A stretch of 34,704 bases of DNA from a virus, in IMG/VR virus record IMGVR_UViG_3300025154_000275, positions 1 to 34,704 of that record; one strand, written 5' to 3'. The translations under genes were made by a program, and so were the position numbers. Position 1 is the first letter of the stretch; every line of letters begins with the position of its first letter. The notes beneath the pieces are model-generated. The model was not told the DNA's origin and searched no databases. It saw only the letters and a list, made by a program, of their open reading frames with translations. Below, one piece after another: positions 2,835-33,602 of the stretch.

Positions 2835-3458
2835 ATGACACCAGCTACAAAAGTACTATTCTTTGACACAGAAACTTCAGATTTTATCAAAAAAGCTCTT
2901 TCTGCCAACGATCCCGAGCAGGCCTGGACAGTACAGATCGGTGCAATACTAACTTATGGTCAAAAAGATCTTCTTCAAATGAGTGTGATTATCCAATCCG
3001 ATGGAAGAAAAATGAATTATTATGCTCAAGAGGTTCATGGTATTTCAACAGAGCAAGCAGATGCTGATGGAATTCCTGAGTTTATAATTGCTGAGCAGTT
3101 TGGACTAATGCTTCGACAGGCTGATCTTATAGTATGTCATAATAAAGATTTTGATTGGAATTACGTTTACCAGATGATGGAACGCAACTTAGATACTTTA
3201 TCAGATTTTGCAAGATCTGCATTCTATCTTGATACTCCTAGTTATTGCACTATGAAAGATAAAGCAGTCGTCAATATGTGTGGTCTAAAGAACAAGGCTG
3301 GCAAACCAAAATGGCCAAAGCTAACCGAGTTGCATGAGCACTTATTTGGTGAATGTTTCGATGGCGCTCATGACGCATATGCAGATATCAGCGCAACTAA
3401 GAGATGCTTTTTTGAGTTGGTGAATAGAGGAATCGTTATACCGAACCTAGAGGGTTAA
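2835..3458 (+). CDS. DnaQ-like 3'-5' exonuclease (DEDDh)
   Basis: Exonuclease of the DEDD superfamily, H subtype. Exo I is D11-x-E13 in FFDTET, Exo II is H102-N103...D107 in CHNKDFDWNY, and Exo III is H179-D180...D184 in HDAYAD. All catalytic acidic residues and the general-base histidine are present, and 207 aa is a normal length for a stand-alone domain. The ATG follows the ATPase stop codon directly, with GGAG about 10 bases upstream, so the two genes are coupled. Likely roles are proofreading in trans for the phage polymerase or degradation of nucleic acid; the sequence does not decide between them. Confidence 0.9.
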   Translation: MTPATKVLFFDTETSDFIKKALSANDPEQAWTVQIGAILTYGQKDLLQMSVIIQSDGRKMNYYAQEVHGISTEQADADGIPEFIIAEQFGLMLRQADLIVCHNKDFDWNYVYQMMERNLDTLSDFARSAFYLDTPSYCTMKDKAVVNMCGLKNKAGKPKWPKLTELHEHLFGECFDGAHDAYADISATKRCFFELVNRGIVIPNLEG

Positions 3459-3459
3459 T

Positions 3460-3795
3460 ATGAAATGTAATAATTGCAATGATACTGGGGAAATAAAATA
3501 TTATTATGATGCAGGTGATCATTTTGGTGCAGGTACTTCTCCATTTAGTGAATGGATTTATGAACCCTGTCCTGATTGTACTAAGAATAATAAAATTATC
3601 AAAACTAAGGAAAAAAACGTTTGCATGAATAAGATGGTAATGTTATCTTACCTTAGAAACCCTTATGGTATTGATGAACTTGAATTACGTACAGCAAGAT
3701 TGCAAGCTGCTACTGAACTTGAAAGACTTTATAAGATTGAAAAAGGCTTGAAAGACCTTATAGCAAAAAGAGAAAAACATAATAATGGAGTTTAA
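3460..3795 (+). CDS. Small zinc-finger protein (111 aa)
   Basis: The N-terminus carries paired CxxC motifs, C3/C6 and C37/C40. The spacing and the CNDTGEI context resemble the zinc-binding repeats of DnaJ-type proteins and many small phage proteins. The C-terminal half (about 65-108) is a long charged helix that could form a coiled coil. The gene starts one base after the exonuclease stop. Zinc binding is a good guess from the cysteines; the partner (nucleic acid or protein) is unknown. Confidence 0.72.
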   Translation: MKCNNCNDTGEIKYYYDAGDHFGAGTSPFSEWIYEPCPDCTKNNKIIKTKEKNVCMNKMVMLSYLRNPYGIDELELRTARLQAATELERLYKIEKGLKDLIAKREKHNNGV

Positions 3796-3797
3796 CT

Positions 3798-4130
3798 ATG
3801 CAAATTGATCCTTGCCCATCAGAAGAAGATTATGATTCTGGGCCTTCATTACGTGCAGCTGAATGGCAAAGCTTTGCTACTAGAGTATTCAATCATATTG
3901 AAATCTACACAGTGCCACAATATGGTGATAAAGGCCACGATCAATGCTCAGAGTTTAGCGAATCTGACTTTATCACCCAGATGAAAAAGTACCTAAATCG
4001 TTATGGAAAGAACTCTCGGGAAGGCCAACAGAGGCTTGACCTACTAAAGATTGCACATTATGCAGGGATGCTTTATACAAAGCTAGCTGAAGAAACCCAA
4101 GAGATTGATAAAATAATCATGCATGAATAA
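3798..4130 (+). CDS. Hypothetical protein with conserved-looking helical C-terminus (110 aa)
   Basis: I do not assign a function. The chain has an acidic N-terminus, then a segment around residues 38-50 (YTVPQYGDKG), then a helical part about 60-95 containing YGKNSREGQQ and LLKIAHYAGM. I have an impression of similar sequences in other phages, usually unannotated, but this is unverified. It starts two bases after the zinc-finger gene, with AATGGAG as a possible ribosome binding site. Its place between replication genes and thyX suggests an early, possibly nucleotide-related accessory protein. Confidence 0.68.
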   Translation: MQIDPCPSEEDYDSGPSLRAAEWQSFATRVFNHIEIYTVPQYGDKGHDQCSEFSESDFITQMKKYLNRYGKNSREGQQRLDLLKIAHYAGMLYTKLAEETQEIDKIIMHE

Positions 4131-4138
4131 GGATATTT

Positions 4139-4336
4139 ATGGAAATCCAAAAATTCATAATCACTATTCAGTGGGGAAAAGGTATGCATTATGTTGCATC
4201 TACTTGTGATACTGAAAAACGAGCAGCAGAGTTAGTTGCTTTTCATACTGGAAGATGTGATAAATTAAAACTTAAAACCAGACGCGGAGCTAAAGCAACT
4301 GTTCGATCCTGGCAATTAGTAACAGAGTCTAAGTGA
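4139..4336 (+). CDS. Small basic hypothetical protein (65 aa)
   Basis: Unrecognised protein with a good Shine-Dalgarno (AAGGAT) six bases before the ATG. The C-terminal half is rich in Lys and Arg (residues 43-56, with KLKTRRGAK), and the N-terminal half alternates hydrophobic residues like beta strands. A small nucleic-acid-binding protein is possible. Its stop codon overlaps the GTG start of the next gene. Confidence 0.6.
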   Translation: MEIQKFIITIQWGKGMHYVASTCDTEKRAAELVAFHTGRCDKLKLKTRRGAKATVRSWQLVTESK

Positions 4337-4569
4337 ATAAATTTATGAAGAAACTAACTGAACTAGATCTACAAAATGCTTTAGATGAATGCGAATTATT
4401 ACAGTTCAAATCTCATGGAGATTGGCTGGCTGGCATGGCTAAGAGATTAAATGCAACTCTTGGACTTACAACGGAGAAGAAAATTGTCAAAAGTTTTCCT
4501 GTGCGGGCAAAACAAACTGTGATTAAAACTGGCAATTCTGTTGAACCAGAAGTTCCATGCAAAACCTGA
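4333..4569 (+). CDS. Small hypothetical protein (78 aa), probable GTG start
   Basis: Unrecognised protein. The first possible start is GTG 4333, which overlaps the stop of the preceding gene (GTGA) and fits translational coupling; an ATG at 4345 would remove four residues. The first 50 residues look helical and the last 25 look extended and basic. No known motif is visible. Confidence 0.55.
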   Translation: MNKFMKKLTELDLQNALDECELLQFKSHGDWLAGMAKRLNATLGLTTEKKIVKSFPVRAKQTVIKTGNSVEPEVPCKT

Positions 4570-4599
4570 AGTGATTAACTACACCTGGAGGGTGTAACA

Positions 4600-4794
4600 A
4601 TGCCAATGACGTTCAAATCTAAAGTGTTGCAAAAACTCCAAACTTATTTACTTTCTCGGGAAGCAGAACCAGTTAGAGATGCAGCCAATGTAATAATTCC
4701 TAATGGAGTTACAGCAGCAGCAACCATACAGGCAATTAAAGATTGTATTAAAATAGTGGAGGCTTGTAATAATGAGATTAATTATAACGATTGA
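4600..4794 (+). CDS. Small hypothetical protein (64 aa)
   Basis: Unrecognised protein preceded by GGAGG about eight bases before the ATG, one of the best ribosome binding sites in this operon. The chain is mostly helical and slightly basic at its N-terminus. The end overlaps the next gene by 23 bases in another frame, which is common among small phage early genes. Confidence 0.6.
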   Translation: MPMTFKSKVLQKLQTYLLSREAEPVRDAANVIIPNGVTAAATIQAIKDCIKIVEACNNEINYND

Positions 4795-5047
4795 ATCAAA
4801 TGATAAAGGCTTAAACTGTTCTGCAACGGTTGATGGAATGGATGCTTTTAATCATGTAGAAGCCAACACTTTTGCTGTAGGTGCTTTAGAAATAGCAAAA
4901 GCATCTTTACTTGCTCGTCGATGGGGTGTGGAGATTGGCATGCCTTTAGTTGATCCGCCTGAAGATGTACTGAAAGAAGAAATTGATCCCAGAGAAGATT
5001 TGCATAATGATTTGATAGCAGCATTAGCTCATGAGGATGGAGAATGA
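4772..5047 (+). CDS. Small acidic hypothetical protein (91 aa)
   Basis: Unrecognised protein with GGAGG about ten bases before its ATG, inside the preceding gene. The N-terminal half looks like beta strands; a helix follows at about 36-52 and the C-terminal third is acidic. Its end overlaps the region of possible thyX starts, so the two genes are probably translationally coupled. Confidence 0.6.
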   Translation: MRLIITIESNDKGLNCSATVDGMDAFNHVEANTFAVGALEIAKASLLARRWGVEIGMPLVDPPEDVLKEEIDPREDLHNDLIAALAHEDGE

Positions 5048-5051
5048 GAAT

Positions 5052-5909
5052 ATGAAAATAATCAAACCAAGCATTCAATTTTATGGGGCAGTCCCAACTG
5101 AATACAATGCCGCTCTTAAGTTCATCGAGATGGCAGGCAGAACATGCTATAAGTCAGAAGACAAGATAACTGAAGATAGTGCAGAAGGATTCGTTCGGAA
5201 GTTGATCAAGGCTGGTCATCTGGCTATGGTTGAGCACTCGAATTTTGTGGTGCGAACAACATTTGCAAGACTTCATTTAGACATAAAAAAGGTTATTGGT
5301 AAGTATCTTAACTCCAAAGAAGTTAATGGCAATTTATTTGTAGGTGGAAATCTCACTGCTTGGGAACAAACTTGGTCTTACTATGATAGTGTATTTAAAC
5401 CTTTCACGAAAGTCTATGGAGACTTATTTGGTTTTGGAAAAGAGGCAATGAGAGAGTATCCAGATGATTGGACCATCTGCCTTCATGACAAAATTCCCAA
5501 AGAACTCCACCGCTACGCAGCAAAATTCATCTGTGATCGCGGGGTCAGTCATGAGTTGGTACGTCACAGACCATGCAGCTTTGCACAGGAATCAACCAGG
5601 TATGTGAATTATGCTGGCAAGGATATGGAGTTTATTGAACCGGATGGTTATGAGAGCTGGAGCATCCCTAACAAAAATAACTTTAAAGAGTCCTGTGAAC
5701 AGACACAATTCCATTATAATACAATGATTCACGACGGACTCAAGCCCCAACAAGCCCGAGCCGTCCTGCCCAATGCCCTGAAGACCGAGATAGTAGTTAC
5801 GGCAGATGCAGCAGAATGGTCGCATATCAGAAAACTGCGAACAGCTAAGTCAGCTCATCCCGATATGCAACGAGTAATGAATATGATGCCTTGGGAAGAG
5901 TTCTTATAA
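5052..5909 (+). CDS. thyX: Flavin-dependent thymidylate synthase ThyX
   Basis: Makes dTMP from dUMP using FAD, NADPH and methylenetetrahydrofolate. The diagnostic RHR(x)7S motif is complete at R171-H172-R173 through S181 (numbering from the chosen start). Other family features include H62 in a MVEHSNF segment and the C-terminal stretch with NALKTEIVVTA and an Arg/Lys-rich helix. The length of 285 aa is normal or slightly long for ThyX. I chose the ATG at 5052 because GGAG lies about nine bases upstream; in-frame ATGs at 5031 and 5037 have no such signal and would add up to seven residues. It is the last gene of the plus-strand operon. A phage ThyX supplies thymidine nucleotides for replication. 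Confidence 0.95.
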   Translation: MKIIKPSIQFYGAVPTEYNAALKFIEMAGRTCYKSEDKITEDSAEGFVRKLIKAGHLAMVEHSNFVVRTTFARLHLDIKKVIGKYLNSKEVNGNLFVGGNLTAWEQTWSYYDSVFKPFTKVYGDLFGFGKEAMREYPDDWTICLHDKIPKELHRYAAKFICDRGVSHELVRHRPCSFAQESTRYVNYAGKDMEFIEPDGYESWSIPNKNNFKESCEQTQFHYNTMIHDGLKPQQARAVLPNALKTEIVVTADAAEWSHIRKLRTAKSAHPDMQRVMNMMPWEEFL

Positions 5910-5910
5910 A

Positions 5911-5959
5911 ACAAAAGCCAGAACCTACGATAACTTGTAAGTTCTGGCAATCTTTTTAT
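5911..5959. terminator. Bidirectional terminator between convergent operons
   Basis: The perfect 8-bp arms GCCAGAAC (5917-5924) and GTTCTGGC (5941-5948) extend inward, after one mismatch, by TAC/GTA. A T-rich tract (AATCTTTTTATT) follows on the plus strand. On the minus strand the base after the stem is preceded by ACAAAA, which gives a short U run in that transcript. It sits exactly between the end of thyX and the end of the minus-strand giant gene, where a two-way intrinsic terminator is expected. Confidence 0.85.
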
Positions 5960-8900
5960 TGCACCGTACCTGTAACCTCAAAATATCTTTTCAATATCAT
6001 CTCCCGTTGCTGTTGCAACTGTCCAAGCCTTTCCCGAACATTTGTTGTCTGATCAATCTTTTTCAACTTATTAATTACTGCCTGGTTCCGATTGAGGGCA
6101 GATTGAAAATTTTCATGCAATTTCATTTGCTTGAATCCATCCAGGTTTGAATTCAAGAAAGTTCGCTTGTCTTCCGAGTTTTCAAGCTGCTTCTTGAAGA
6201 TGTCTACTTCCTTGCTGACCTTACCAAACTCTTGTTCATTGCTACTCTTCTTATAGTCTTCTCCACGACCGTAGTGCCAATAATAGAGCTTACCACCAAT
6301 TGGGATTGATTCAACAATTCTGGCATGATCAAAATCAATTGTATCTCCCGTAATGTAAGATCCATACAATTGGTTAAGATCCTTACTGATGGAGTTTACA
6401 AACCTGAAGGGAGGCAAGATCTGTCCGATTAATCCAGATCCTAAACCTTCCCTAGTAGTTTGCATCCTTACATACTTTGATGCTCCGCCCATGGTTAAGA
6501 AGTTTTCAATCACGTGATCTTCAAACTTAGTTTCTTTACCCAACATCCAGTCTTTAAGTTCATCCGCGCCTGCATTAGCAAGTGTAAGCAAACTTACCAG
6601 CTTTATCATGTTACCAATTCCTTCAATAACCTGATCCCGTTCGCCAGTCTTAATTTTGTGCCAGGCTTCATTTCTGAAAACATCAAACTGCTTTAGTGTA
6701 TATGTCTTGAGCATATAAAACACTCGACCATTTCCACTCTTGAGATATTGCTCTGACATTTCAGAAAGCGCTACAGGTTGAAAATCCAACAACCGATGAT
6801 AAAGTAACATCTTTACATTGTCTGTTGGATTATTTGCAAGCAAATCATTTATTACACTTTCCGACTGTGTTCCAAAAATAGGCTTGATTTGCTTTAACAG
6901 TTCTGTTCTTCCCGCTTCTGTGCTGGCCATAGCTTTGTAGGTGCTAAACGCATTGTTAATCAATGTTTCCTTGCCGATAGAGTCAATTCTTTCAAGCCCA
7001 ACTTTTTTGAATACCCAACTTACTGCATTCCCCAACGTAGTTCCGTCTGCAAACTCCTGAGCAATCCTTTCAATCCCGAGATCTTCCTTAGTTATTTCAG
7101 ACTTCTTAGTTATGGCTTTACCAACATTCTTAATTGTATCAGCCAGGCCACGTGGTGTCCATACCTTGCCTACATACATCGCCCAAGCAAGATCTCCAAT
7201 CTGAGTCAGCGCTGATATTGGCGATCCCATCACGTCGATGTATGACATATTTTTATAGGCATTAACTATTCCTGTAGCTCCATGTTCGTGGAACCTAGCA
7301 TCAAGAATATCTCTAACTACTTTTTCATCATCTGCTTGGATTCGACCAGACATTCGTAGGTCATTAATATATGTTCCAATATTCTCAGTGTAATCTCTTT
7401 GCAGTTTGTACTTATCCAATTCTTGCTCAATCCTAATTAGGTCGCCAGAAACATCTTCTATGCGTGCAGCATTATTAGCTTTTTCATAATCTGTGAGCAT
7501 TACCTGCTTTCGTTTCTTCTCAGCCTTTAGGGTTGCTATTCTTTCTGGAACCTTACCAAAGAAACGTCTTGCTTCTATTTTCTTAGTCATACTATAGATG
7601 TATTGCATCAATGCTGCATCACTATCCATGTAGAACTTATTCAATTCTGGTGGAACAGTTTCATATTGCCTGGCTTGAATATTGCCTGGGCCACCAATAC
7701 CTAGGTTCCTGCCAAGTATTGTGTTGCTCGCAATATCTGCTGCCTGTTCAGGATACTCAATTTCAAACTTTTCAACTGTCATACCCAGTTTGTCTGCATA
7801 AACTTTGATTGCATCAGTAATAACTGGTCGTTGAGAAATTCCTTTAGTTGCCTGTAAGAAGCCTTCTTGATCCTTAATTATGCGAGGCCAGTATTCTTCA
7901 ATAAAACCTACATCATAACCAACATCAATTGCATCCTGCCTAATCTGATCCAAGACTGTTCGTAACTTTTCTTGATCAGCAGTCATGTTATATTTTGCTG
8001 CAATCTCTTTTATCTTCCCTTCGTCTGAGTTTCTCCTAGCTGCATCCCAAACAAATTTGTCTTGCGGACTCATTTGCTTAGTCTTTTCCAGCAATGGGTG
8101 AGCAATTCTTAAGGCAGTTACAATCTTTTGTGCCGTCCGAAAATCGAGGTTTCTAATCTCTGCACGAAGCATCGGATCTACATTTTTTAACCTGGTTGAT
8201 ATAGACCCCAATCCCTTGTCAATGAGTTGCTTAATTTCATGTCCGCGCATACGAAGCGTCTGTCCGATTGTACGAACCAAACTATTTCGTTCGCTGTACA
8301 TTTGGTGATAAACATCATCGCTAATCTTCTGAACTGGGGCTTCACGAACCTCGAACATTGGCATACCTTCACGAAGTGCCTCAGCTTGACGCTCATAAAT
8401 CTTTCCACTTTCTACTTCACGAGCCAACCCTGAGACTGTTTGCTTACCAAAGCTGAACAATTGCTGAAAGAAGTCTATTACTCGCTGAATCACTTTACCA
8501 AACGCAGTGTTTCTGTATTCAGCTCTGTTGACCATGATTTGAGCAAACATGTTCGCACGATTCTCAACCATTCGTTGCTTAGGGTCTTTATGAGTACTAA
8601 GAGCAAAATCAAGCTTGCCTGCCTTTCTCAGTTTATTAAACTCCTTATTCAACGCGCTGTCATCTGCTTCTGTAATCAAACCCAAGTTGTCAAGAACATG
8701 CTTGTTTTCATGCCAAAGAGTCTTATTGTCTGCAAAGTTTTCATCAAGAAGAATTTCATTCTCTACTGTGATGCCAAGGATCTTGCCTGTCTTTGACATC
8801 TGGCCCGTTTCAATTGCTAACTTAACAAGGCCTTGACCAGCACCTTGAATGCTATTAATTGTTAAGCCTTGGCCATTTTTGAACTGTACAGATACTGAAC

Positions 8901-22575: not shown

Positions 22576-23304
22576 TCATATATGTATCCCTAACACTTTC
22601 TTGGCAAACACACATTCTCCATTCTTAAGTACCTCAGCAAAGTCATCAAGATTCATAATCCAATAACCTTTCCGCCTAAGATTCCAATTCGGCCAAGAGT
22701 TAGGTCCGCCAATCAAACGCTGATGCAAATTAACAAATGTAGCTGCTGTGCAATGTCCCCCAACTACGCCACCAGTCGGAACACTCAATCCATCCTCTCG
22801 TGGCTCCATCATTCCATCTGTCCACGCCAGTCCAAGAACTGCACTACCATAATAAGCAATACCTCGGATAACTTCATCAACTGTTTTAGCCCTGCAATAT
22901 GATTCAATCAATCCCTCTTTCTTGGCGGTCTGCATAGTAGCAGCGAGAGACGTTCCATAGCTAATAGGATTCGATCCAGGTCGTTCAGATCCAGGCCATT
23001 GATCATTGTCCTGTACTCTGAAATAAAACTGCAAAGCCCACTCATCTCCAAGCGAACAAATGTTCGGTTCATGCTCAAGGAAAGCAGCAAACCCAAAACC
23101 AGCACAAGCACTCCACTTGCGTTGATTAAGTCCAGGATCACTAAACTTCTTAACTCGATACTTGCTAATTAGCTCTCGTTCACTAAGGTCTATACCACCA
23201 TCTGGTGCAGCCATAGAAAGAAGGTTCGGTGCAGTTGGATCTGGCTGAAAAATAAGACCACATCGTGTGTCTCTAGTTTCTGTTTTGCCATCTTTAAGTA
23301 TCAT
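22576..23304 (-). CDS. Papain-like cysteine peptidase (C1 type, 242 aa)
   Basis: The catalytic set of C1-family peptidases can be read in order: Q61 (oxyanion hole), C67 in WSACAGFGFA, H184 in GGHCTA, and N202 in NSWPNW followed by GYW. The core spacing fits a small papain fold without a pro-region or signal peptide, so the enzyme would act in the cytoplasm or in the virion. Its ATG overlaps the stop of the coiled-coil gene (ATGA). Possible roles are capsid or tail processing, host-protein cleavage, or cell-wall peptide cleavage; the context of envelope-directed genes favours the last, as inference. Confidence 0.82.
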   Translation of the reverse strand: MILKDGKTETRDTRCGLIFQPDPTAPNLLSMAAPDGGIDLSERELISKYRVKKFSDPGLNQRKWSACAGFGFAAFLEHEPNICSLGDEWALQFYFRVQDNDQWPGSERPGSNPISYGTSLAATMQTAKKEGLIESYCRAKTVDEVIRGIAYYGSAVLGLAWTDGMMEPREDGLSVPTGGVVGGHCTAATFVNLHQRLIGGPNSWPNWNLRRKGYWIMNLDDFAEVLKNGECVFAKKVLGIHI

Positions 23305-25305: not shown

Positions 25306-25635
25306 TTAGCTCTCCTCGAAATCACCCTGGCCGTCAGTCAGAGTATTCTCATCAGGCCCTTCTGGTTCAGCCACCTCCTCATCCGGTACATCAGGTATCT
25401 TCCTGGCAGCTTCATCGGCTAACCCAGGAAGGATGTTGAACGCGTCTCCCAAGACCTCCACAGCCTCAGCCATATCCTCTTTTTTAGTCACTATGACGGA
25501 GATGTTGATCACATTACCACCAGGAACACTTGCCTCGGGCTTTCCTCCGCTTGTTCCGGTTTGGCTGATCTTGATCGGTGCCGCGCACCCTGTTAAAAAA
25601 CCTAATGCAATAATCGCTATCAATGCTTTTTTCAT
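25306..25635 (-). CDS. Small lipoprotein (109 aa)
   Basis: A classical lipoprotein signal is visible: basic MKK, a hydrophobic core, and the lipobox LTGC with Cys17 as the acylation site. The mature part begins with a Ser/Gly/Pro-rich linker, continues with an amphipathic middle, and ends in a very acidic Pro/Glu/Asp-rich tail. The start at 25635 is supported by AGGGGA upstream. It follows the beta-helix gene by 13 bases. Possible roles are o-spanin or receptor-blocking lipoprotein of the Cor/Llp kind; neither is proved. Confidence 0.75.
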   Translation of the reverse strand: MKKALIAIIALGFLTGCAAPIKISQTGTSGGKPEASVPGGNVINISVIVTKKEDMAEAVEVLGDAFNILPGLADEAARKIPDVPDEEVAEPEGPDENTLTDGQGDFEES

Positions 25636-25648
25636 ATCATTTCCCCTA

Positions 25649-27487
25649 TTACTGCATATTTCCCAGCGGCACCGTGCCGCGAGATTGCGGTCCAATTACA
25701 GCACATTCCCCAACCTGGCAGGCCCCGTCGCACCAATACAACCCCGACACTGCCTCACAAGTTTCTTGTGTCAAACATAAATCAGGATGACCAAAATCAC
25801 ATACTGGGTCAGGTGTGCTTCCTGGATTGGCGTATGCCAAAGTTATGGTGGGGTCAAACGTTTCTGTCAGCAATGTCTGGCTGGTATTGTTATTGTCGTG
25901 TAGCCGGTAGCTGTAGCGATACTCCTCGGTCACGATTGCACCGAAATAAACATCCGTTATTCCACTGCTTGCCGGGAGGAAAGAATAAGAGTCTGCTGCC
26001 GCACCGCCTTGATAGATACTGCCGACTACCCTGGCCTGGGAGTTGTTGCCGGTCGTGTTATAGGTGTTGGCGTATGTCCGGTAATCTACATCCGAGCCGC
26101 TCTTTATAAACGTGTTGCCACTGAATAATGGGTAGCCATTACACCGGCTATAACTGTCACCCAATACCAGATTATACCCGCTGGATGTGACGGTATTGTT
26201 GAGCACAAATAGAGAATCAGAACTATTCGCAGAACATGTTATCCCGATTGTATCAGATCCATCGCCAGTTACGGAAATGGTATTGTTCGAGAACGTGGCG
26301 ACCATGCCCTGAACATACGCCCCAATAAACAGTCCTTTTCCGCCGCCATCTATGTATGCGGTTGCCCCTGTTGGAGAGTATGTGCCAGTGTATCTGTTGT
26401 CGGTAACAACGGTGATTTGATTATTATAAGCTACAGTGTCATAGGCATTCCAGGTTTGCCGTATCCCTGTCGCTGAATTGCCTGGATAAGTGGCACTCGG
26501 ATCGTTCAGGTATTGGCTTCCGTATTCAACCCCTAGTGCTGTAATTTGCATATCCATGATATTTTCATAGATTACCACGTCATGATTGCCAGTTCCCCCT
26601 CCGGTCCCAACCCCAATAGGGTGTTCGCCTCGCCCAATTATGGTGTTATCGTGTATGGAGATATTCGATCCCTCATATTGCCCCACGCCAGACGAATTTG
26701 TGGCAATTGACCGGATAGTGATATGGTTGCCATACACCTCGGCGTTATTGCCAGTAACAATCCCTCGATGTCTGGTGTTGACAATAGTGTTATTTCGGTA
26801 TACCGACCCGGTAGCGCTTGATGCGCTTTTTGCTCCTGTCAGAGCCTCAGACCCCTGCATCCGATTCTTGAGGGTGCCAAACTCGTAGGTATCCTCTATT
26901 GTATTCTGCTCATACAATCCATAACTCCCTGAGCAAATAATTCCACCAACATCCCTACCCCCATATTTTACATATAGGTTCGCAACGTGAATATTATCTG
27001 CTGATCTAGTGCCTGCGAGGTCTGTGCTGTAAGTCCCGATAGGGTTATTCCCCCTGCCGTATTCATTGCCCTCAGACATGGCTGTGCCTTGGATAATTGA
27101 CCCGTTACGAATTGAAATATGATGTTTATTCCATGCCCCGAAGGTCACTCCTTCGCCTGGATTGACGTTGTTATACGTGATTGAGTAGCCATTTAGGTCG
27201 ATGACCACGTAATTTGCGGACACAGATATCGCTGTTGAATCCGCGGTGATATTTCCTTGCAGAATATATCGAGTGTTCGCCTGGTTCGCCTGGTATGGGG
27301 TTGAGTAGTTCCCCCCATCTACATTGACAGTGTATATGACATCGGCAGCAAACGGGACCTCCTGGAGCGTGCAACTCCCCCAGTTCACAGTCGAAGGATC
27401 GCAAGTAGAGCCATCCCCTCCTAGGCCAAAGGCTGAAGAGTACAATGTTAGAAGGAGCAATGTAGTAAATAATTGTATTTTTCTCAT
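25649..27487 (-). CDS. Secreted right-handed beta-helix protein (612 aa)
   Basis: The N-terminus is a Sec signal peptide (MRKIQLFTTLLLLTLYSSAFG), with cleavage likely near residue 21. The mature chain is a long series of short strands with repeated N-N-x-I and G-N-T-I turns (for example YRNNTIVNT and IHDNTIIGR), the pattern of pectate-lyase-like right-handed beta-helices (about 75-480). The C-terminal part contains a Cys cluster (about 570-600). This fold is common in tailspikes, but a signal peptide is unusual for a virion spike. I chose the ATG at 27487 because the longer start overlaps the upstream gene and breaks the signal peptide. Export to the host envelope is likely; enzyme activity is not established. 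Confidence 0.78.
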   Translation of the reverse strand: MRKIQLFTTLLLLTLYSSAFGLGGDGSTCDPSTVNWGSCTLQEVPFAADVIYTVNVDGGNYSTPYQANQANTRYILQGNITADSTAISVSANYVVIDLNGYSITYNNVNPGEGVTFGAWNKHHISIRNGSIIQGTAMSEGNEYGRGNNPIGTYSTDLAGTRSADNIHVANLYVKYGGRDVGGIICSGSYGLYEQNTIEDTYEFGTLKNRMQGSEALTGAKSASSATGSVYRNNTIVNTRHRGIVTGNNAEVYGNHITIRSIATNSSGVGQYEGSNISIHDNTIIGRGEHPIGVGTGGGTGNHDVVIYENIMDMQITALGVEYGSQYLNDPSATYPGNSATGIRQTWNAYDTVAYNNQITVVTDNRYTGTYSPTGATAYIDGGGKGLFIGAYVQGMVATFSNNTISVTGDGSDTIGITCSANSSDSLFVLNNTVTSSGYNLVLGDSYSRCNGYPLFSGNTFIKSGSDVDYRTYANTYNTTGNNSQARVVGSIYQGGAAADSYSFLPASSGITDVYFGAIVTEEYRYSYRLHDNNNTSQTLLTETFDPTITLAYANPGSTPDPVCDFGHPDLCLTQETCEAVSGLYWCDGACQVGECAVIGPQSRGTVPLGNMQ

Positions 27488-27492
27488 TTTTA

Positions 27493-28254
27493 TCACCACG
27501 GCTTTGCCGCCTGCCAACCATTCAGTATTGCAAATTTGGTCACCTGCACATAGTCACCGGCAGTCATCGAAAACTCTCCCCGAGGGCCAACAGAGACCGA
27601 TGTCAACGAGGGTCCGTCGGTCGCTGATAATTCGTCATAATCATCATCCCACGTCCCGTCAGAGTTCACGGAGTGGTCCCGGTTCGGTCTATCCCACGTG
27701 TAGGCAATATCAATCCATGTCCCGGCTGTTATGGCAACATCCCCATATGCTGACATAGATGCTGCGCCAATCCGATGATATCCGACGATGTTTCTCGTAC
27801 TATTTACGGCTATTTTCAGATAATTTGTCGCGTCATAATTGGCCGCGAAAAGGATAGTGTTGCCTAGTGGAGTAGCGTTTACATACACCCTCACCCAAAC
27901 CGTCTGTACTCCATTGATATCAAGAGGCACCCCGCCACTATTCGGCCATGTGATGTACTCGTTTACTGCGTCTCCCTTGATGCCGATATCGGGAGATCCC
28001 TCACCATAATCGGTTCCAATGTCGAGCGCCCCCACTACCGTGCCATCTACTTCAGTCCCGCTACCATTGCAGCCATAATCAGTGCCTGATGTGTGACTAC
28101 CGTCCCACGCAAAAAGATAGGTGCCGGACATGCAGGATGCGCCGCCGCCTCCTTGCCCCTTCGCCATTCCTATGACACTCATGATCTGCTGACTGCCGGC
28201 AAATGACAGCCCCGGAATCAGCAATAAAATCAATACCAGTATGAGTTTTTTCAT
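27493..28254 (-). CDS. Secreted LamG-like protein (253 aa)
   Basis: The signal peptide MKKLILVLILLLIPGLSFAG is followed by a Gly-rich stretch. A beta-sandwich of the concanavalin/LamG kind then follows (about 85-250), suggested by YITWPNSGG, VRVYVNATPL, IDIAYTWDRPN and a final VTKFAILNGW. Such domains bind sugars or proteins. The ATG at 28254 is preceded by AGGAAA in a four-base-spaced coupled junction with the upstream lipoprotein gene; a longer start upstream has no signal. It precedes the beta-helix gene by five bases. Envelope location and ligand are inference. Confidence 0.75.
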   Translation of the reverse strand: MKKLILVLILLLIPGLSFAGSQQIMSVIGMAKGQGGGGASCMSGTYLFAWDGSHTSGTDYGCNGSGTEVDGTVVGALDIGTDYGEGSPDIGIKGDAVNEYITWPNSGGVPLDINGVQTVWVRVYVNATPLGNTILFAANYDATNYLKIAVNSTRNIVGYHRIGAASMSAYGDVAITAGTWIDIAYTWDRPNRDHSVNSDGTWDDDYDELSATDGPSLTSVSVGPRGEFSMTAGDYVQVTKFAILNGWQAAKPW

Positions 28255-28255
28255 A

Positions 28256-29080
28256 TCAGTTTCCTGTGTCCGTCCAATGCGTTCCGAGTACCGTCCCAGA
28301 CCAGCAATAATACCCATCCGCCGAGTAGTATTGGCAGGTGATCGTGTCTCCTGCCGCACTGGTATTGGTTGCCTTATCTCCATCGTCCAGCGTAACCCCA
28401 TCCAAAATCATTTTATCGGCTGCATTTACGTCCAGGCTGACGACGATATTTCCGATGGTGACAACCGTAAAATTCATTCCCGACAAGACGGCAGGGGCTG
28501 TAATGGTTGAAGTTGCAGTTACATATACTGTGCCACCGTAAGCCTCATCCGGTGAGTCGGTACCGATGGTATAACTTGTTGCTGTGCTCGTTGTCGCTGT
28601 TTTATGGACCCCCAAAACGTGGAACTCAATATCTCCCTCAACGAGTTTGACCGCCCCTGCCTCATTATAAATCTCTTCAATTCCGCCACCTTGTGGGGAA
28701 ATGGCTGTATTGTTTGGCAGATCGGATGTCCTGTACCCATCAGCCGCCAAGGTAGCGAGTTTGGTCACGCTGAGGGTATCGGTGGTCTTGTTATAGGTCA
28801 GCCCGGCATCGCCGCCGAAAACTCCGCCGTCATTAAACTGGACATAAGTATCCGATCCTCCTGGTGTGCCACTGCCGAATGCAGAGAATAGAACATTCTT
28901 CGTCTGCCACTGAGGTGCCGATTCCGAGTCTACGATAAGAACCTTGTCACCAGCAACAGGTGTAGTCTTCGTAGCATAACTGGACTGTGGAGCTTTGAGA
29001 GGCATATCCGTCATTTTATTTTGATTTCCAGCACAAGCTGTCAAGGACAACAACAAACTTATCACTAAGAGTTTTCTCAT
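28256..29080 (-). CDS. Tail-fibre-like protein with lipoprotein signal (274 aa)
   Basis: The first 17 residues form a lipoprotein signal (MRKLLVISLLLSLTAC, lipobox LTAC, Cys16). The mature part contains GGSDTYVQFNDGGVFGGDAGLTYN (about 74-97), a motif I associate with phage tail fibres, followed by the linker LSVTKLATLAADG. The C-terminal half (about 200-274) has the DKMILDG...TCQYYSADGYYCW pattern often seen at tail-fibre tips. A fibre domain behind a lipid anchor is unusual. The start is supported by GGTGG upstream. It is the first gene of the exported cassette. Confidence 0.78.
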   Translation of the reverse strand: MRKLLVISLLLSLTACAGNQNKMTDMPLKAPQSSYATKTTPVAGDKVLIVDSESAPQWQTKNVLFSAFGSGTPGGSDTYVQFNDGGVFGGDAGLTYNKTTDTLSVTKLATLAADGYRTSDLPNNTAISPQGGGIEEIYNEAGAVKLVEGDIEFHVLGVHKTATTSTATSYTIGTDSPDEAYGGTVYVTATSTITAPAVLSGMNFTVVTIGNIVVSLDVNAADKMILDGVTLDDGDKATNTSAAGDTITCQYYSADGYYCWSGTVLGTHWTDTGN

Positions 29081-33197: not shown

Positions 33198-33602
33198 TTA
33201 ACTAACAGTACAAACACTAGATATCAATAAGGAACCATCAGGCTTAATAAAAACAACCCAATAATCATCGGCAACAGCAGTAATAGTCAGTCCCAATAAT
33301 CCGGCCGCAGTAGTCGTAAACAAGCTCGGACCTGCACTTCCAAGATTCTTAAGTGCACCATTAGTCAAGACAGCTAAAGTCGTATCAGCTAAATCAATTG
33401 TTAGTCCAGTAGCTACTTCACTTAAGTAAAGCAATCCAGATACCGGAGCCGTAAGAGCATTACCAGAAACATCTTTGAAAGCAAATTGAACTGCACAGGA
33501 ACCTGATGCAGGTGTAGCAGTAGTAGTTACTGATGCGAAAGCAGGAAAGATTGCATTACCTTCAAAAGTCGGACCAGTTTTACCAAAAGAATATTTTCCC
33601 AT
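33198..33602 (-). CDS. Small structural/decoration-type protein (134 aa)
   Basis: Ala/Thr/Leu-rich beta protein without cysteine motifs or membrane segments. It is the first gene after the capsid gene, which is a usual position for head decoration or cement proteins. GGGTGG lies upstream of the ATG. A hairpin at 33626-33653 separates it from the capsid gene. The decoration role is inferred from position only. Confidence 0.65.
   Translation of the reverse strand: MGKYSFGKTGPTFEGNAIFPAFASVTTTATPASGSCAVQFAFKDVSGNALTAPVSGLLYLSEVATGLTIDLADTTLAVLTNGALKNLGSAGPSLFTTTAAGLLGLTITAVADDYWVVFIKPDGSLLISSVCTVS

Follow-up and report, generated by a model that had tools for sequence, protein, structure and literature searches.

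A phage tail-adhesin cassette that occurs with and without predicted export signals

Gene A and its surroundings

The window, as we call the whole stretch of DNA analysed (34,704 bases), carries genes that by eye look like those of a tailed phage. A near-twin is part of a 64,927-base IMG/VR contig, with 11 mismatches over the 16,446 bases compared. Gene A starts with ATG and runs from 29080 to 28256 on the minus strand, encoding 274 residues. Genes B, C and D follow. The features are:

28256..29080, minus strand: gene A, a tail-fibre/spike-like protein of 274 residues bearing a predicted lipoprotein signal (open reading frame, translation, relatives)
29036..29080, minus strand: predicted signal peptide of A, residues 1-15, with a predicted cut before the lipobox Cys16 of LTAC (sequence and heuristics)
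28757..28987, minus strand: tail-fibre modules of A, TTPVAGDKVLIVDS and QFNDGG...GLTYNK, residues 32-108 (identity to L009; PHROG 9942)
28265..28609, minus strand: C-terminal XD1-like spike domain of A, residues 158-272, with Cys249 and Cys259 (AlphaFold2, VIA-align)
27493..28254, minus strand: gene B, with a predicted signal peptide (residues 1-19), the anchor peptide GSQQIMSVIGMAK and a variable domain (sequence, heuristic)
28153..28197, minus strand: putative anchor peptide of B, directly after the signal (motif comparison)
25649..27487, minus strand: gene C, a predicted signal peptide and a large protein (heuristic; similarity to L088)
25306..25635, minus strand: gene D, a small predicted lipoprotein (LTGC) adjoining the cassette (heuristic)

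The N-terminus of A reads MRKLLVISLLLSLTAC-AGNQ, with a positive n-region, an unbroken hydrophobic core, the lipobox LTAC and an alanine at position +2. Over residues 38-107, A shares 57% identity with the signal-free phage tail protein of L009, and PHROG 9942 'tail fiber protein' matches residues 75-134 (E 1.8e-4). Pfam gave no match for A, B or C of the window. The initial annotation had proposed a tail-fibre-type protein with an export signal, and this is borne out: a Sec-type signal and a clean LTAC precede fibre modules within a single 274-residue frame. Signal calls, here and below, combine a hydrophobicity, charge and cleavage heuristic with reading by eye and are predictions throughout. 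Among 62 distinct intact-start ORFs with a QFND/GLTYNK-type motif (78 viral-contig loci), two passed the hydrophobicity threshold, the window's A (as its twin contig, L001) and an ORF of L048 that was read as a false positive; the signal on A is thus not a matter of chance. In-frame ATGs are present at residues 23 and 26 of the window's A, so that a minor cytoplasmic form may exist besides the signal-bearing one.

The AT-rich DNA under the signal had also been taken as the trace of a fusion. The composition is as described (GC of 35% in the first 75 nt of A, against 51% in the next 450 nt) but is not specific to the window. All 18 exported A genes compared have a more AT-rich first 75 nt, and we dropped this general property as evidence of fusion.

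Export signals are predicted on all three cassette genes of the window; those on B and C had previously been missed. The heuristic flags five of the 41 non-overlapping window ORFs of at least 60 residues, namely A, B, C, D and 33198-33602, the last of which we take to be a false positive. Lipoprotein-like ORFs also follow the cassette in L080, L082 and L084, and gene D, separate from A, could be a lysis lipoprotein. Window C is 49% identical over 421 residues to an L088 protein that fuses the same domain to a B-type signal and anchor. The structure model of window C is of low confidence (mean pLDDT 44). Given this poor model and the lack of Pfam matches, 'lectin-like' and 'beta-helix' are by-eye readings for window B and C.

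PHROG 16701 'peptidase' matches window positions 22576-23304 on the minus strand (E 2.7e-19), presumably in the lysis region. GC content is 44-52% at about 22.7-29.0 kb, against 33-37% on the flanks (20.0-22.1 and 29.0-31.4 kb), and it climbs again beyond 31.7 kb, reaching 43-47% around 32-32.6 kb and past 33.5 kb. A recent import of the cassette in one block with the lysis-type genes is no more than suggested by this profile, because GC rises again outside the block.

Relatives with and without the signal

Viral contigs were scanned for relatives of A, first with the full-length protein and later with alignments built on its C-terminal 115 residues; a genome scan was added. The comparison set holds 36 rows of A including the window (35 different sequences). 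Before counting, L104, L113, L114 and L120 were dropped, their proteins being identical to those of L103, L112 and L119, as were the re-fetched or twin copies L001, L002, L004, L079, L094-L102, L107-L109 and L111. The A gene of L121 has a broken 5' end and was placed in neither signal class; L126 was left out of the tree.

A signal is found on A in 19 of the 35 assigned rows (window, L080, L003, L081-L092, L103, L106, L110 and L132), whereas 16 rows are signal-free (L105, L112, L115-L119, L122, L123, L125, L127-L131 and L133). In 18 exported rows the top-scoring hydrophobic stretch reaches 2.2-3.7, versus at most 1.95 in the other 17; L106, outside the 18 scored rows, was classed as exported by eye. 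Phage tail fibres are normally made without an export signal; 16 of the A rows conform to this, and the window and 18 others carry a predicted signal. By the heuristic, signals were flagged on A at 15 of 15 loci, on the ORF labelled B at 13 of 15, on that labelled C at 10 of 14, and on 24 of 223 other ORFs of these loci. To these we added by eye the B of L090 and the C of L003, L080 and L082; the 'B' of L085 and the 'C' of L088 are not B or C. Also judged by eye were B and C of L103 and L106, A of L106 and every signal-free B and C. At the start of L105 B, MSLQLILAILSKNR, a short hydrophobic stretch was read as an anchor rather than a signal.

Signals go together within the cassette. For A and B, 16 rows have both, one has A only, none has B only and 13 have neither (n=30; Fisher p 1.2e-7, the rows being related). 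This table leaves out L121 and the rows with no recognisable B (L085, L128, L129, L131 and L132). For A and C, both are present in 15 rows and absent in nine, with no case of A only or C only (n=24; Fisher p 7.6e-7, again among related rows). Fifteen rows have signals on A, B and C jointly. The mixed case is L110 (5218-6988), with a signal on A and none on B (MRHHSSIARKKAGAN). Signal-free cassettes keep the same gene order A-B-C. About two changes of signal state suffice on the tree of A, and its two independent pairs are too few to test A against B, or A against cysteines, with phylogeny taken into account. One switch sits on a supported branch, where L105, signal-free on all three genes, groups with the exported L106 and L110 (support 96/90), and the AU test against a single clade of all signal-free A is marginal (p 0.044). 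On sequence, then, two versions of this phage tail-adhesin cassette are found, one bearing predicted export signals and one lacking them; the predicted signals, the synteny, the ancestry shared with signal-free versions and the modelled spike fold of the tip can be read from the sequences themselves.

Lipid anchoring, the main point of the initial annotation, was not supported by the comparison. A canonical lipobox occurs in one of the 19 exported A, that of the window. Near misses are YSSC in L087 and GAAC in L110, L103 has no clear cleavage site, and the remaining exported A have, by eye, signal-peptidase-I-like sites. The heuristic also returned 'LIPO' for L092 B and L089 C, which we judged unconvincing, and L106 B has APGC. 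It had been expected that relatives would keep both the lipobox and the fibre domain; they keep an export signal with the fibre-tip domain, and a canonical lipobox is absent from the other 18. Lipid anchoring as a conserved feature was therefore rejected, and the lipid anchor of the window's A is a local variant.

Additional signal-bearing ORFs lie upstream of A in L081 (1227-4034), L082 (1086-3415), L110 (3453-5207) and L091 (8965-9318), so the exported block may exceed three genes in some phages. One C-type family is found signal-free as C of L105 and signal-bearing upstream of A in L081 (2478-4034); the two are 29% identical (2e-33), and the exported copy is about 33 residues longer at its N-terminus. 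In L132, the protein encoded at 5415-7292 on the plus strand has a signal-like start, MKKLILILLLLSALAFG, a PHROG 376 'tail protein' match from residue 25 and Laminin_G_3 at its end. One scan with this protein found its own contig only.

The exported loci span a GC content of 36-60%. The modules upstream of the cassette vary by eye, being podovirus-like or siphovirus-like. Lysis-type genes are found downstream in several cases (Peptidase_M15 in L082, the PHROG 16701 peptidase in the window); in L086, head-tail-type genes by eye follow the cassette. Ordinary fibres or spikes without a signal are encoded as well in L080, L085 and L090, so the exported cassette may be accessory. At 16 exported loci, no second copy of A, B or C turned up in the stretches compared (blastp, E<=1e-5). 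An integrase (PF00589) scores above the cut-off in 3 of the 19 exported-A records (L081, L091 and L092), the records being fragments, and in 0 of 12 signal-free records (L129 is below the cut-off); none is found in the window's 64.9-kb near-twin. Lysogenic conversion as a general reason for export was discarded, with an integrase in just these 3 of 19 fragmentary records.

Sequence searches gave little beyond these rows. With tblastn against GenBank phages, A gave partial matches only (20-23% of the query, 4 records), L119 A was covered over 41% in 2 records, and no match was obtained with B, C, L119 C or the C-terminal domain of A. Pattern scans P0002 and P0003 of viral contigs returned the near-twin contig only and missed L088, so relatives can escape them. 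A search of solved structures by sequence with alignment A8 gave an unconvincing best E of 0.027. The genome scan with alignment A3 gave no match, and with A8 it gave two, Cerasicoccus frondis (L125, signal-free) and a Paceibacterota MAG (L126). Among 288 genomes of the phylum of G001, a match at E<=1e-8 was found in G001 alone. In L126, the protein encoded at 7644-8279 on the plus strand bears a signal and weakly matches the C-terminal domain of A, on a contig whose genes by eye are ordinary chromosomal ones. A domesticated or parallel use of the A-type domain is possible there.

Spike fold, cysteines and the anchor of B

The AlphaFold2 model of A, made from a 15-row alignment, has a mean pLDDT of 60.8 and is confident only at residues 160-270. 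In this C-terminal domain, pLDDT is mostly 79-86, falling at the last residues. The best fold match is the C-terminal domain of the Pa223 capsid spike (9ny6), with a Foldseek E of 1.5e-6 and a VIA Z of 11.4 over 96 residues. VIA also aligned the tip with residues 78-186 of CBA120 TSP4 (Z 11.0), with T4 gp9 (Z 9.8) and with baseplate proteins of Klebsiella phage KP1 (Z 11.4) and T4 (Z 10.1). The same fold is found in secreted bacterial proteases (6o38, Z 8.0; 4dny, Z 6.9). BFVD matches of the tip include some named tail proteins. Residues 78-186 of TSP4 fall between the AD-XD1 and XD1-XD2 linkers and correspond to XD1, the function of which is described as 'not yet fully understood' even in TSP4 (excerpt of PMC8825819). 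Domains of the XD2 or XD3 type are absent from the fold matches of A, whose model is confident at residues 160-270 only.

In the model, Cys249 and Cys259 sit on two adjacent strands whose register would let them pair. Of the 19 exported A, 12 have at least two cysteines among their final 34 residues, compared with 0 of 16 signal-free A; the remaining seven exported A lack the tip pair. Cysteine content is also higher in exported B (1.04%, 14 of 16 proteins taken) than in signal-free B (0.38%, 11 of 15), and in exported C (1.19%, 11 of 15 proteins taken) than in signal-free C (0.61%, 9 of 10). Such enrichment in exported A, B and C is the pattern expected from an oxidising compartment.

In signal-free B, the anchor directly follows the initiator methionine, as in MADVTSQGVLSAVARK. 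In exported B the matching stretch comes after the signal, as in LLANTQFHSVIARKNAG of L091. Of 16 exported B, five match a motif built from 11 signal-free anchors, each with p<0.05 (L081, L090, L091, L103 and L106), and the combined p is 1.4e-6; the match is weak in the window's close group (window, L080 and L003, p 0.17-0.30). The L088 protein mentioned above (3157-5112, plus strand) joins a B-type signal and anchor to a window-C-like domain, which indicates that the B anchor can carry different heads; the next ORF is terminase-like by eye. Beyond the anchor, B is variable. Laminin_G_3 matches L091 clearly (1.9e-36) and L080 below the cut-off, two other B proteins have marginal matches to other families and six have none (n=10). 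For C, Beta_helix is above the cut-off in the exported L080 and L086 and in the signal-free L117; L090 has one marginal match and six have none (n=10). The C proteins of L080 and L117, both with Beta_helix, are weakly similar (E 0.008).

Possible roles and known systems

The cassette is probably an exported phage tail-adhesin module, and it is fairly likely that A, B and C form one complex. The reading we prefer, while giving it somewhat less than an even chance, is that of an exported modular tail-adhesin set in which A would be the scaffold fibre and the complex would act outside the cell, most likely on the progeny virion. That the complex joins virions is itself a guess, and one that may well fail.

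By this scheme, A, B and C would be exported late in infection to the periplasm through their own Sec signals. The +2 rule for lipoprotein sorting is known from E. coli; by it, the window's A, once lipidated, would be expected in the outer membrane. In the periplasm, A, B and C would fold, form disulfides and assemble, with B docking via the short anchor peptide behind its signal. Lysis would set the complex free together with the virions, and it would then bind receptors or glycans outside the cell, most likely as an addition to progeny virions. Tails of tailed phages are built in the cytoplasm, so the complex could join a virion only by contact after lysis. Actual export, the disulfides, the docking of B on A and the late timing are what we infer from the comparisons above. 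The most elaborate form of the proposal seems doubtful to us: in some tailed phages, fibre, adhesin and enzyme subunits would leave the cytoplasm by the Sec route, acquire disulfide bonds and assemble in the periplasm, and be added to the virion no earlier than lysis, and the module would switch in evolution between cytoplasmic and exported states.

A and its partners might instead be free secreted proteins that act on the matrix, the lectin-like and beta-helix parts binding or cutting extracellular polysaccharide outside any virion. Consistent with this, Beta_helix is present in the C proteins of the exported L080 and L086 and Laminin_G_3 in L091 B, and L080, L085 and L090 have ordinary fibres or spikes besides. 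WceF provides a precedent as an exported trimeric tailspike-like hydrolase (excerpt of PMC7949094). This reading does not explain, however, why the spike scaffold A, the fibre modules and the shared B anchor are retained, and signal-free cassettes of the same gene order occur in phage contigs; we regard it as rather unlikely, though a close rival of the preferred reading.

Receptor blocking, proposed in the initial annotation by analogy with Llp and Cor, is in our view a rather unlikely role but likewise a close rival. Exported A, B and C would then be retained in the host envelope or at its surface and take up the receptor, shutting out other phages or sparing progeny from binding to debris. 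The window's lipobox with Ala at +2 fits such a role, and binding-type domains (Laminin_G_3, Beta_helix) occur in some exported B and C. Llp of T5, a lipoprotein located in the periplasm, is able to close a phage receptor, but known exclusion lipoproteins are described as small (excerpt of PMC9586334). The single canonical lipobox among 19 exported A argues against anchoring as the common purpose. With no further A, B and C copies seen in the stretches compared at the 16 exported loci, a decoy of some separate virion protein is not in evidence either, although the exported proteins might still occupy a receptor.

An ordinary cytoplasmic fibre whose hydrophobic N-terminus is a non-working signal, or is bypassed by an internal start, is very improbable. 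Its fibre modules are typical of signal-free tail proteins, and, as regards the initial annotation's caveat that the true start might lie after the signal, 14 of 18 exported A have at least one start codon at residues 12-70, the window's A having ATGs at residues 23 and 26. In the other four (L080, L081, L090 and L092) no start codon occurs there, so the signal would have to be translated. The joint presence of signals on A, B and C in 15 rows, and a Shine-Dalgarno-like sequence ahead of the signal ATG in many exported A (by eye), also speak against it. That A is a spanin-like lysis lipoprotein is scarcely credible: peptidase-type genes lie nearby, but the match to PHROG 16495 (Rz-like spanin) is confined to residues 1-28, which is the signal, and the remainder of A is fibre-like.

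If an exported tail-adhesin set is indeed encoded here, it would imply a second site of tail assembly, or else a phage-made envelope complex. The module with and without signals, in phages of very different GC, provides a natural comparison for testing why. Annotators should also be warned that fibre-like phage proteins can be envelope proteins. In a thin look at the open-access literature we found no description of a signal-bearing cassette for tail fibres, spikes or receptor-binding proteins; the available excerpts of PMC3556154 and PMC13001222 describe no such exported cassette.

The branched complexes of CBA120 (TSP1-4) and T4 (gp10/gp9) share the XD1 fold with the tip of A and have adhesin-type genes side by side. 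The present cassette differs in that signals are predicted on all three genes and XD1 is C-terminal; XD2/XD3 docking domains are not recognised in the model of A, which is confident at residues 160-270 only. We know of no branched tailspike complex with export signals. The Pa223 capsid spike (9ny6) carries the same domain at the end of its chain (196-294 of 294), but the good alignment with A is limited to this one domain; an open-access literature search listed no paper on this spike. The pIII protein of filamentous phages binds the receptor as part of the virion and passes through Sec before assembly; it belongs to an unrelated virus group whose assembly takes place at the membrane.

Llp of T5 and Cor are phage-encoded envelope lipoproteins, and the likeness to them is limited to the window's A. 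Cor is a small protein and, to our knowledge, neither Cor nor Llp has fibre domains. Llp is small as well (excerpt of PMC9586334), and the lipobox is not retained in relatives of the window's A. In Streptococcus phage SM1, the tail proteins PblA and PblB have a second function at the surface of the host; holin and lysin are required for their release, and they rebind choline (excerpt of PMC7600539), whereas here each gene has its own predicted signal. WceF of Pantoea stewartii is an exported trimeric enzyme with a tailspike-like beta-helix but, unlike the phage cassette, it is encoded in a bacterial biofilm operon and carries a Tat signal (excerpt of PMC7949094).
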